Assembly (NCBI GenBank): GCA_013298625.1 | Contig: JAAFIF010000026.1 | Coordinates: forward strand, 28,095-92,094 | Origin: Myxococcales bacterium | GTDB taxonomy: Bacteria > Myxococcota_A > Polyangia > Polyangiales > Ga0077539 | Reading direction: 5' to 3' | DNA length: 64,000 bases | Part shown: piece by piece, positions 12,613 to 57,743 of the stretch | Layout: every line of letters begins with the position of its first letter | Position numbering within the stretch: the first letter of the stretch is position 1 | The notes under the pieces: generated by a model | Databases searched by the model: none | What the model saw: the letters and a program-made list of their open reading frames with translations, nothing else | What the model was told of the DNA's origin: nothing | Translations under genes and position numbers: made by a program

Positions 12613-12749
12613 GGTGAGCGACCTCCGTTCGTGGGTCTCACCAGCGCCAACGGAGCTGCGCGCCGCTCGTCGAAGGGCGGCGACGATTTTGTTTCAGCGA
12701 GCTCTGTTTTGCGCGGCCACAAAACCGATCAGTGTATTCTGGCGAGCGC

Positions 12750-13298
12750 ATGTTGGGAGAGCACAACAAGAGCGAATTGTTCGCTGTTCTCGTGGCGTGG
12801 CGCGCGGTGAGGCAAGCTGGCTGGCCGCAGCTGGCGCCATCGATCGCGCAGCGCTCGGGGCAATGGATGAGGATGGACGAGGCTGCGTTGCGCGCGGAGG
12901 TGCAAGCGCTGCTCGACGAGCTGTCGCGTCCGAGCGAGTCGGTGCGGCTGTTCTGGAAGTTCGCTCCCGAGCTCGAGTATCGGGGATTCAACCGGCTGTT
13001 TCTGCGGGACAGCGGCGTGGCGACCGGCGCAGAGCTGCTCGGCGAGACGGACATCTCGCCGTGCGTTGGATGGTCGCGACAGGGTGCGAAGTACCGGGCG
13101 GACGACATGGACGTGATCGCGCAAGCGCACGGCGTGAAGGACATCGTCGAGCGCCAGGACCAAGCGGACGACACGGTGTGGGTGCACACGGTGAAGAGCG
13201 CGATCTGTCTCCCGGGCGGCGAAGCGATCGGGATCCTGGGGATGTACGAGGTCATCGACGGCGCGACCGCGGCGCGTCTGCAGCGACGCAGCCGCTGA
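12750..13298 (+). CDS. PAS-fold-like protein of unknown function
   Basis: FAPELEYRGFNRLFLRDSGVATGAELLGETD...GKYRADDMDVI...VKSAICLPGGEAIGILGMYEVID resembles a PAS sensor layout. Confidence 0.5.
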   Translation: MLGEHNKSELFAVLVAWRAVRQAGWPQLAPSIAQRSGQWMRMDEAALRAEVQALLDELSRPSESVRLFWKFAPELEYRGFNRLFLRDSGVATGAELLGETDISPCVGWSRQGAKYRADDMDVIAQAHGVKDIVERQDQADDTVWVHTVKSAICLPGGEAIGILGMYEVIDGATAARLQRRSR

Positions 13299-13337
13299 GC
13301 ACGGGGCGGTCTGTCGGGGCGCCACGGGCGACGGATA

Positions 13338-13830
13338 GCGCGGCCCCCACCCGCGCGTGGCGTAAGCGAGCGAGCGAGCGCGCGGCCCCCACCCGCGCTA
13401 CCGCGCGCCCCGCCCCCGCGCAAAGCGCAAGGGCGGCGGCTCTGCACGGTGAATCGTAAGGAAATAGTCTGGCAGAGTTGATCGTGAAGGCCCTTGCTCT
13501 GCAAGGGCTCTCGGGCTGCTCGATCGAACACAATCGCTGCTCGCCGCGCGACGGCAGACAACGCTCCACTGGCCACGAGTTCGCTCTCGTACCGTTGCTG
13601 TCCCGACCGTTGCCCGCAGCCTCGCCCTTGCAGAGCAAGGGCCTTCACGACCAACTCTGCCAGATCAATTCCCGACGATTCACCGTGCAGAGCCGCCGCC
13701 CTTGCGCTTTGCGCGGGGGCGGGGCGCGCGGTAGCGCGGGTGGGGGCCGCGCACTCTTCGCTCGCTCGCAGCGCGGGTGGGGGCCGCGCGCTCTTCGCTC
13801 GCTTACTCCAAGCGCGGGTGGGCGCCGTGT
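13338..13830. repeat. compound inverted repeat with 128-bp arms (13381-13508 / 13624-13751) flanked by copies of a 19-bp GC-rich unit
   Basis: Hand alignment: arms match at 122/128 positions, 115-bp spacer. Unit GCGCGGCCCCCACCCGCGC at 13338 and 13380; inverted at 13734, 13771 and (diverged) 13812. Confidence 0.95.
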
Positions 13831-13893
13831 ACTCCGTTGCGCGCGTTGCTCGAGCGTGCCGCGTCCCCCTCCCCGCTGCCTCCCCGTTGTCCT

Positions 13894-14850
13894 TCAGGCC
13901 TGCGCGAGCCAGCCCTTGAACGCCTCGGTCTCGACGAGCCCCTTGGCCATCGCGAGGCCGCGGGTGCGGGCCCAGTCGCGCGCGTGCTCTTTGACGCCCG
14001 CGCGCTCGAGCAGCGAGCCGATGGACTCTTTGGCGAGCTGATCGAACACCGCGCGCACTTCGCCTTCGATCGCCTCGCGAAGCTCTTGCCGCGCGAGGTT
14101 GTGGGCGACGATCTTGGGAAGCGAGGCGTCGAGGTCCTTCCATCGAACGGACTTCTCGACCCAGGCGCCTGCCTCGGACTCGCTGCGCTCGAGGAGCTTC
14201 TGAAAGAACTTCTGCCTGCGCTTTCCCAGGGTCTTCGCGGTCTCTTCGCTGGCGATTCGGTCCGCGAGGCGCTTCTGCGCGGCGGCCATCGAGCTGTCGA
14301 CGAAGCCCTTGGCCTTCTCTTGCAGCTGCTTCTGCAGCTCTTCGCCGATGCCGCCGAGGAGGCCTTTGCCGACGCCCGCGGCCGCGCGCGCGCCGAACGA
14401 GAGCACGCCCCGCAAGCCCCCTCCGCCGCTCGATCCGCCCTGCGCTTCCGGCCCCGCGAGGGCTTTGTTGACGAAGCCGTCGAGCGTCTCGGTCACCACT
14501 TGCCGCACGCCTTCGCGCACTTGCTCGCTGGCGACCGCGTCGTCGATGGCCTTGCGCGGGAGCTTCACGGGGCGACCGAGCTGCTCGTCGAGCGCCGCGC
14601 TGACGTCGGCCGGAAGCCACGCCGAGAGGCGCACCGCGCTCTTCTTGGCCCGCTCGATCAGCCGCTCGCGCAGCGGAACGCCGATCCACCCATGAAAATC
14701 CGCGGTGCGCTCGGCGGCGAGCGCGTCGTCGAGCACCGGCAGCACCTTGGCCGGGTCGATCACCGACTCGAACGGCTGCGCGCACACGTAATCAAACGCG
14801 ACGTCGATCAGCGCCGCGAGCTTCGCGTCATCGAGCGCGAGGTCGCTCAT
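13894..14850 (-). CDS. protein of unknown function
   Basis: Long ORF with plausible composition, stop-start overlap with upstream ychJ-like gene. Confidence 0.65.
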   Translation of the reverse strand: MSDLALDDAKLAALIDVAFDYVCAQPFESVIDPAKVLPVLDDALAAERTADFHGWIGVPLRERLIERAKKSAVRLSAWLPADVSAALDEQLGRPVKLPRKAIDDAVASEQVREGVRQVVTETLDGFVNKALAGPEAQGGSSGGGGLRGVLSFGARAAAGVGKGLLGGIGEELQKQLQEKAKGFVDSSMAAAQKRLADRIASEETAKTLGKRRQKFFQKLLERSESEAGAWVEKSVRWKDLDASLPKIVAHNLARQELREAIEGEVRAVFDQLAKESIGSLLERAGVKEHARDWARTRGLAMAKGLVETEAFKGWLAQA

Positions 14851-29225: not shown

Positions 29226-29226
29226 C

Positions 29227-29470
29227 GGGGACGGTGTTCAATAGTTCACGACAGGGCGATAACTGCGTGAAATCACGTGACGCTACCCACTGCGACGCGC
29301 ACCGCGCTCGGGCGGACGTCGCGACGGGGACGGTGTTCAATCGTTCACGAACTGGGTGACGGGACCGTGTGCGATGGTTCGCGACCGAGCAAACGCCACG
29401 CGGACCTGGGGACAGGGCTACGTGATCTCGCGAGGTTATCCGGGGTTCTTGAACTATTGAACACCGTCCC
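29227..29470. repeat. REP-like cluster: two direct and one inverted copy of GGGACGGTGTTCAAT(A/C)GTTCA
   Basis: Copies at 29227-29251, 29326-29350 (+) and 29447-29470 (inverted). Confidence 0.92.
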
Positions 29471-29514
29471 TCCTGCTCCCCCTGCTCCGTTGCCCTCGCT
29501 GACGCTGTCGATCC

Positions 29515-56009: not shown

Positions 56010-57743
56010 TCACATCAAGCGGATCACCGCGTCGTACGCGCCCGCCGCGCCGTTGAATCCATCGATGACGACGTCGATGTCCGAGCCACCAGCGACGCCC
56101 GACTGCGTGTAGGTCTCCGTCGCCGACGCCGACATGCTGTCGATGCACATCGAGCCTGGGCATCCGCCGCCCGCGCGCACCACGACATCCCACGTCGGTG
56201 CGAGCGGGGTGACGGCGACGCTCAGCGTTCCACCGTCGACGGCACGAATGCGAAGCACGACCTCGGGGCCTGTGGCGTTGCACGGGCCGCTGCCGCTGCC
56301 GTTGTTGGTTCGGCCGACGGTCGTCCCACGAACGCGAACCGTCTGTCCGCTGCGCACCTGAATGCTCGCCGCCGTGTCTGCACACGCCTCGCGGATCACG
56401 TTGTTCTCGATCTGGCACGTCATCGAGCATCCGTCACCGCTCGCGGCGGCGCGGCCATCGTCGCAAGACTCGCCCGCGTCGATCACTCCGTTGCCGCACG
56501 GAACGGCGGTCGCGACGCAGCTCGATCCCATCGCCATGAAGCCCGGGTTGCATGCGATTCCGCAGGTGGTTCCGTTGCACGTCGCCGTGCCGTTGGCCGG
56601 GACCGCGCACGGCGTGCACGAGCTCCCGCAGGTCGCGACGCTGTTGTTCGACACGCACGCCCCGCTGCACAAATGCTGGCCCGACGCGCAGACCGGCACG
56701 CACGCGCTGCCCATCGGCATGAAGCCCGGGTTGCAGGTGAAACCGCAGGCGGTCCCGTTGCACGTGGCCACGCCGTTCGCAGGGACAGGGCACGGCGTGC
56801 ACGAACCCCCGCAGGTCGCGACGTCGTTGTTCGACACGCACGCGCCGCTGCACACATGTTGCCCGGCGGGACACGTGAGAACGCAGGTCGACCCCATCGG
56901 AGCGAAGCCCGCGTTGCAGGTGAATCCGCAGGTGGTTCCGTTGCACGTGGCCACGCCGTTCGCGGGGACAGGGCACGGCGTGCACGAGCTCCCGCAGGTC
57001 GCGACAGCGCTGTTCGACACGCACGTCCCGCTGCATACGTGTTGCCCAGCAGGGCACTGACACACCCCCGCGACGCAGCTGCGTCCGCCCGTGCACGCAG
57101 TGCCGCACATCCCGCAGTGGTTGTTGTCGGTCATCGGATTGACGCACGTCCCGCCGCAGTCCGTCGTCCCTGTGTTGCAGACGCACGCGCCCGCGGTGCA
57201 CGTCCTGCTCGCGTTGCAGACGTTGTCGCAGCGGCCGCAGTGCTCGCGAGTGCTCTGCGTGTCCACGCAGAGCGCGCCGCACATCGTCTGCGCGCACGTG
57301 TTCATGCACGCGCCCATCGAGCAGAACTGCGTCCCGGCGCACGCTGTCCCGCACGCGCCGCAGTTGGCGCGGTCCGATCGCGGATCGACGCACGCCCCGC
57401 CGCACAGGGTCATGGGCGCCGCGCAGATCGCGCGACAGATGCCGAGCGCGCACTCTTGCCCGGCTGCGCACACGGTTCCGCACGCGCCGCAGTGGCTCGT
57501 CGACGTCTGCGTGTCCACGCACTGACCGCCGCAGCGGGTCTGGCCCGTGGGGCACTGCACGTCCTCGACGACGTCGGGCCGCGAGATGACCTGGTCGCCG
57601 ACCACGTCGGGTCGGCTCACGTCGGGCGGGATGGTCATGTCTGCCCGCGCGCCGCTGTCATCGTCGGGCGCGCTGGCGTGGGGCAGCGCGCACGCTGCGG
57701 AGCTCGCGACGACGAGCAGACCGACGACGGTTGAGCGGTTCAT
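56010..57743 (-). CDS. cysteine-rich repeat lipoprotein, paralog of the preceding gene
   Basis: Same signal/lipobox region (ACALPHASAP), same Cys-repeat architecture and DAGESCDDGRAAASGDGCSMTCQIE. Confidence 0.88.
   Translation of the reverse strand: MNRSTVVGLLVVASSAACALPHASAPDDDSGARADMTIPPDVSRPDVVGDQVISRPDVVEDVQCPTGQTRCGGQCVDTQTSTSHCGACGTVCAAGQECALGICRAICAAPMTLCGGACVDPRSDRANCGACGTACAGTQFCSMGACMNTCAQTMCGALCVDTQSTREHCGRCDNVCNASRTCTAGACVCNTGTTDCGGTCVNPMTDNNHCGMCGTACTGGRSCVAGVCQCPAGQHVCSGTCVSNSAVATCGSSCTPCPVPANGVATCNGTTCGFTCNAGFAPMGSTCVLTCPAGQHVCSGACVSNNDVATCGGSCTPCPVPANGVATCNGTACGFTCNPGFMPMGSACVPVCASGQHLCSGACVSNNSVATCGSSCTPCAVPANGTATCNGTTCGIACNPGFMAMGSSCVATAVPCGNGVIDAGESCDDGRAAASGDGCSMTCQIENNVIREACADTAASIQVRSGQTVRVRGTTVGRTNNGSGSGPCNATGPEVVLRIRAVDGGTLSVAVTPLAPTWDVVVRAGGGCPGSMCIDSMSASATETYTQSGVAGGSDIDVVIDGFNGAAGAYDAVIRLM
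56520..57068 (-). repeat. three tandem 183-bp (61-aa) repeats inside the Cys-rich lipoprotein gene
   Basis: CxxGQHxCSGxCVSNxxVATCGxSCTPCxVPANGxATCNGTxCG... repeated; matching bases spaced 183 bp. Confidence 0.92.

Follow-up and report, generated by a model that had tools for sequence, protein, structure and literature searches.

The palindromic element at 13338-13830 of the window, the 64,000-nucleotide stretch of Myxococcales DNA analysed here, is probably a copy of a non-autonomous palindromic transposable element of the foldback, MITE-like kind, and thus a parasitic mini-transposon more likely than a control element peculiar to this locus. It belongs to a high-copy family, which the window by itself could not show. 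The element behaves like a MITE, but membership among the MITEs is not claimed for the window copy itself, because the terminal inverted repeats (TIRs) and the target duplications (TSDs) of this copy are not recognisable.

The long inverted repeat described in the initial annotation (13381-13508 and 13624-13751) is real and slightly longer than described (Table 1). Its arms of 133 nt each are 95% complementary and lie 115 nt apart, and most of the mismatches do fall within one patch, which reads TAAGGAAATAG versus TCGGGAATTGA. The 19-bp units that had been placed outward of the arms are exact at four positions and are spaced by 37-42 bp; the third inverted copy at 13812 is present, but degenerate. 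The inner hairpin GCCCTTG-CTCTG-CAAGGGC was located in both arms. The element of ~0.5 kb is without a plausible gene and, in agreement with the earlier description, without a transposase ORF, the ORFs there being mechanical frames only. RNA folding of 13338-13830 yields -425 kcal/mol versus -241 +/- 6 kcal/mol for dinucleotide shuffles (z about -30), and the folding is thus far beyond chance. The convergent arrangement of the two neighbouring genes is confirmed, with the left start at either 12732 or 12750.

Table 1. Coordinates of the palindromic element, its parts and the adjoining genes in the window.
Feature	Position	Strand
Palindrome in full, as far as it can be recognised in the window, with outer units, arms and loop	13338-13830	
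Outer 19-bp unit GCGCGGCCCCCACCCGCGC, left copy 1	13338-13356	+
Outer unit, left copy 2, runs on into core block	13380-13398	+
Core block CCCACCCGCGCTACCGCGCGCCCCGCCCCCGC, kept across genera of the family	13388-13419	+
Left arm of long inverted repeat	13376-13508	+
Left-arm inner hairpin GCCCTTGCTCTGCAAGGGC	13490-13508	+
Central loop; kept among full copies of the window subtype, swapped in another subtype	13509-13623	
Right-arm inner hairpin	13624-13642	-
Right arm of long inverted repeat	13624-13756	-
Right-arm local hairpin GCCGCCGCCCTTGCGC-TTT-GCGCGGGGGCGGGGC; retained in other genera, where its sequence differs	13692-13725	+
Core block, right copy	13713-13744	-
Outer unit, right copy 1	13734-13752	-
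Outer unit, right copy 2	13771-13789	-
Outer unit, right copy 3, degenerate	13812-13830	-
Left convergent gene, 188 aa (or start 12750), without Pfam match	12732-13298	+
Right convergent gene, 318 aa, without Pfam match; orthologs in the sister genomes G001 and G002	13894-14850	-

Other repeats are present in the window. A second palindromic element of a different kind lies at 29226-29480 (GGGGACGGTGTTCAATAGTTCACGA ... TTGAACTATTGAACACCGTCCC, arms of 72 nt at 71%), and pieces related to it occur at two loci of the same genome (L065 and L085). At 56515-57056, a 183-bp repeat forms three tandem copies (81-82% alike) within a predicted gene.

A 511-bp query of the element finds 104 matching stretches at about 50 places in its own genome (G000), many of them at contig ends, as would be expected for a repeat at which assemblies break. 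The unit GCGCGGCCCCCACCCGCGC occurs 109 times in this genome at one mismatch or fewer, versus once in the reversed control. Full copies have the arms and the loop in common. A second subtype (L029 and L037) keeps the outer 100 bp around an entirely different interior, which is again near-perfectly palindromic. The 32-bp core block CCCACCCGCGCTNCCGCGCGCCCCGCCCCCGC is counted 58 times in the own genome, 114 times in G002 and 71 times in G001, which together represent one genus, and 39 and 11 times in G007 and G008 of a sister genus; all five genomes belong to one family. A few copies are found in G006 and G012, and the reversed control gives 0 in all genomes counted. With a match at up to three mismatches in only 9 of 186 genomes of the order, the core block is nearly absent from the order outside the family. 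No match was obtained when viral contigs were scanned for the core block as a pattern, when a plasmid collection was searched with the element by blastn, or within the element in Rfam up to E 5, and the literature that was searched held no account of such elements in myxobacteria. Copies may lie close together, as at L010 (G000:C218:18000-37000), where four of them occur in ~15 kb of one contig in gaps between unrelated genes. The window's own contig begins with a chimeric join (L022, G000:C84:1-377) of an element copy and the flank of another site, the same site that ends contig C33 (L041, G000:C33 right end).

The true ends of the element were sought by aligning outward from the core. In many copies the motif GGGTGTGATTGCGGATCGTGCGGGCGG marks the ends and the flanks beyond it are unique; several copies of the own genome end in GGGTGTGATTGCGGATCG inverted repeats. 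The terminal motif is counted 57 times versus 0 for the control in the own genome and 34 times versus 1 in G001, and it is also present in the MAG 'Deltaproteobacteria bacterium Ga0077539'. Full TIR-bounded copies measure 548 and 658 bp, and the same motif bounds shorter elements with unrelated interiors. Perfect 8-bp TSDs flank five elements with these ends (GCTTGAAG, GATCGACC, CAGAGAAC, CGTACGCG and GGCCGCTG), and two further elements with the terminal motif show a 7/8 match. The five include a 98-bp deletion derivative of the window type. At the GCTTGAAG site, this derivative is present on one contig and a full-length arm of the window type on another, so that the site looks polymorphic in the sampled population. 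L011 and L037 have the terminal motif at both ends, yet without a clean TSD. The window copy has neither a recognisable terminal motif nor a TSD; most plausibly, it is an old copy whose ends have decayed. Further MITE-like elements that share the GGGTGTGATTGCGG ends but have unrelated interiors were encountered at L069 (2488-2955), L072 (2508-2726), L091-L097 and L111-L134; elements with these ends include species-specific palindromic arrays, e.g. CCCCGAATGAATTCGGGG.

To locate orthologous sites, the two sister genomes were searched with the flanking proteins. G001 keeps the gene order of the window with the convergent stops only 3 bp apart (TAG-CGC-TCA), versus 595 bp in the window. In G002 the left gene is missing, and there is no element at the orthologous place. 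Given the empty site in G001 and the lack of an element in G002, the copy in the window seems to have been inserted. The alternative, that the sisters lost the element, would have required precise removal and is less favoured, on a comparison of three genomes. The same is seen at L029, where the flanking genes encode an amidohydrolase and Lgt (Pfam): in both G001 and G002 these genes overlap tail to tail by 14 bp without an element. At L011, an element of the family is present in G001 too, but its interior is another one; either the insertion there is older or the site has been used more than once.

The two arms of one locus are more alike than random arm pairs from different loci (mean 0.884 versus 0.824, p 0.0003, 18 copies). 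This likeness is strongest in alignment columns 32-70, and for this middle segment it survives the removal of three divergent copies (p 5e-5), while for the whole arm it is not significant once they are dropped (p 0.38). At 16 of 18 loci, both arms have the same free base in CGCTNCC. Any of palindrome correction, template switching and recent amplification would produce such likeness, without a need for selection on an RNA hairpin. Within each arm, a local hairpin persists across genera although its sequence differs between them. Imperfect positions of the local hairpin, read by eye, pair as G-T on the strand with the outward-pointing 3' end.

With respect to genes, the element prefers 3' ends. 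Both-armed copies in six genomes adjoin 55 3' ends versus 30 5' ends (n = 85, p 0.004), and convergent gaps make up 16 of 35 for the element, compared with 9 among 51 pairs of neighbours in the window (p 0.005), counts that are approximate since genes were called by a home-made codon-usage caller. Some copies lie in tandem or divergent gaps. A like preference for gene ends and convergent gaps is seen in REPs (PMC3733652), so position alone does not identify the mechanism.

The search for a mobiliser covered the terminal-motif sites of G000 and G001 with their neighbouring genes and gave no transposase-bearing partner with the same ends; the assemblies break at the repeats. Genes inside one-ended terminal motifs are ordinary by Pfam (ABC transporter, P450, FIST and others) and include no transposase, and an IS1595 transposase is absent from the three genomes searched. 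The own genome holds four Y1_Tnp genes, none of which has the unit, the core or the terminal motif nearby.

Several copies do not fit this picture of the ends. A TSD search at the palindrome's own edges found long direct repeats only at L009, L029 and L180, where the terminal motif is absent and the flanking repeats measure 40, 36 and 42 bp, respectively. At L029 the direct repeat covers, as read from the sequence, the 26-bp overlap of the two genes, and both genes therefore stay intact. Core-bounded copies in G001, G007 and G008 have other outer ends; in G006, which belongs to another genus, the single core is bordered on its outside by a GGTGTGATTGC-like end. G007, G008 and a single genome from a different family have another multi-copy stretch behind the core block, in which an ORF starts before the contigs break off; strong DNA matches to this ORF start are confined to contig ends of G007 and G008, and weak ones elsewhere looked like noise. 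Cases where the core block continues into AGCGCTGACGTGGGGACACATCTCCAGACTCC or diverged versions of it are L155/L217 (G008:C503), L223 (G008:C741), L148 and L159 (G007) and L216 (G185:C791). The ORF start behind it, which reads MLTLSTPLLAPQLVATLWPSLSLPDVRLAARLEQSVEHLLTRW in L155, is multi-copy, without known relatives and always cut by contig ends. This stretch may be an insertion sequence (IS) that owns the core block and would then be a candidate parent, although no transposase could be retrieved from it.

From this follows the alternative that the core block (GCCCCCACCC...CCCCCGC) is the true terminal repeat of another IS, with the palindromes as its derivatives and the GGGTGTG ends found in this genus as a secondary capture or a neighbour element. 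We regard this as possible, but not as the expected outcome. It would fit the core-bounded copies with other outer ends, the multi-copy ORF start behind the core and the long direct repeats at the three loci; the truncated ORF, however, has no relative in Pfam, plasmids or the searched genomes. The end of the GGTGTGATTGC type outside the core of G006 indicates that both modules have long been together, and the deletion derivative of the window type has GGGTGTG ends together with an 8-bp TSD. Quite unlikely, in our estimate, is a bolder variant, in which the core palindrome would be a mobile module moved by an undescribed enzyme that duplicates 36-42 bp of target at gene ends; the module could thereby enter even overlapping convergent genes without breaking them, and it would switch between transposon ends that are not related to each other (GGGTGTG... 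in this genus, others in the sister genera). The preferred reading as a MITE-like element leaves the 36-42 bp direct repeats at three copies unexplained.

The initial annotation had offered a MITE- or BIME-like element, a structured RNA or a strong bidirectional terminator. The MITE-like reading holds up through the multiple copies, the TIR-bounded relatives with 8-bp TSDs and the empty orthologous sites, whereas a BIME in the strict sense does not. Inverted arrangement of palindromic units at gene 3' ends and the four Y1_Tnp genes could suggest a BIME or REPIN mobilised by a RAYT (Y1) transposase, but no core, unit or terminal motif lies near these genes. The unit borders derived from 105 distinct arms read GGNAGCGC with N variable, so that the position equivalent to GTAG is not fixed and no GTAG/CGTC tag is present. 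TIR-bounded members moreover carry 8-bp TSDs, which to our knowledge are not expected of Y1 enzymes, and we consider mobilisation by RAYT very improbable. A structured RNA conserved at the locus is unsupported, the site being empty in the sisters. That the element acts as a bidirectional terminator or mRNA 3'-end stabiliser and is retained for this service to convergent genes is unlikely, even if the enormous hairpin, the position behind stop codons with an excess in convergent gaps and the local hairpins kept with different sequences across genera would suit it. The orthologous gap does without the element in two sister species, copies also occupy tandem and divergent gaps, and the convergent position is typical of mobile REPs as well (PMC3733652). 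A classical intrinsic terminator would have a T tract, and no stem with a T run was found in 13250-13950; a terminator-like side effect of the element is possible. The feature comes from one contig of a metagenome assembly in which contigs do end at copies of the element and at least one join is chimeric, but dozens of independent copies of the same architecture in several assemblies leave practically no room for an artefact or a one-off local duplication-inversion. Single-copy occurrence, named beforehand as the sign of such an event, clearly fails, and copy number rules this candidate out.

Foldback transposons have long inverted repeats that partly consist of tandem subrepeats around a replaceable middle. 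The element shares these properties; unlike them it is bacterial and far smaller, and the likeness drawn here is one of architecture. In type II prokaryotic MITEs, likeness to an IS is confined to the ends (review PMC10969869). Similar to these, the element is small, gene-free, intergenic and present in high copy, with inverted ends, a very stable hairpin and 8-bp TSDs in related members. In contrast to the AT-rich MITEs it is G+C-rich and almost wholly palindrome with tandem subterminal units, its subtypes exchange middle and outer ends, and the search gave no parent IS. With REP, BIME and REPIN sequences (PMC3733652, PMC3116915) it has in common the inverted arrays of palindromic units behind stop codons and the enrichment between convergent genes, but it differs in the missing GTAG/CGTC tag, the missing nearby RAYT, the arms of ~130 bp and the TIRs and TSDs of related members. 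What is unusual for a MITE-type element is the G+C-rich giant palindrome, the modularity of the ends and, at three loci, the long direct repeats.

We propose that a DDE-type transposase supplied in trans, none of which was found in the assemblies, would recognise the terminal inverted repeats. Copies would persist mostly just behind stop codons and chiefly between convergent genes, because an insertion there would hit neither coding sequence nor promoter. The window copy would be an older one that lost its terminal motif and is now inert or a terminator-like hairpin. The arms of a locus could be alike through palindrome correction, template switching or their recent birth, and local gain and loss may set how many outer 40-bp units a copy has.

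The MITE-like reading explains the most striking repeat of the window and the frequent assembly breaks at the same sequence. Should the direct repeats of 36-42 bp prove to be a signature of transposition, this would be unusual. With empty sites, 8-bp duplications and a full-length and a deleted allele at one site, the family offers a clean case for the persistence of long near-perfect palindromes in bacteria. Occupied versus empty convergent gaps form a natural series for asking whether a giant hairpin alters transcription.
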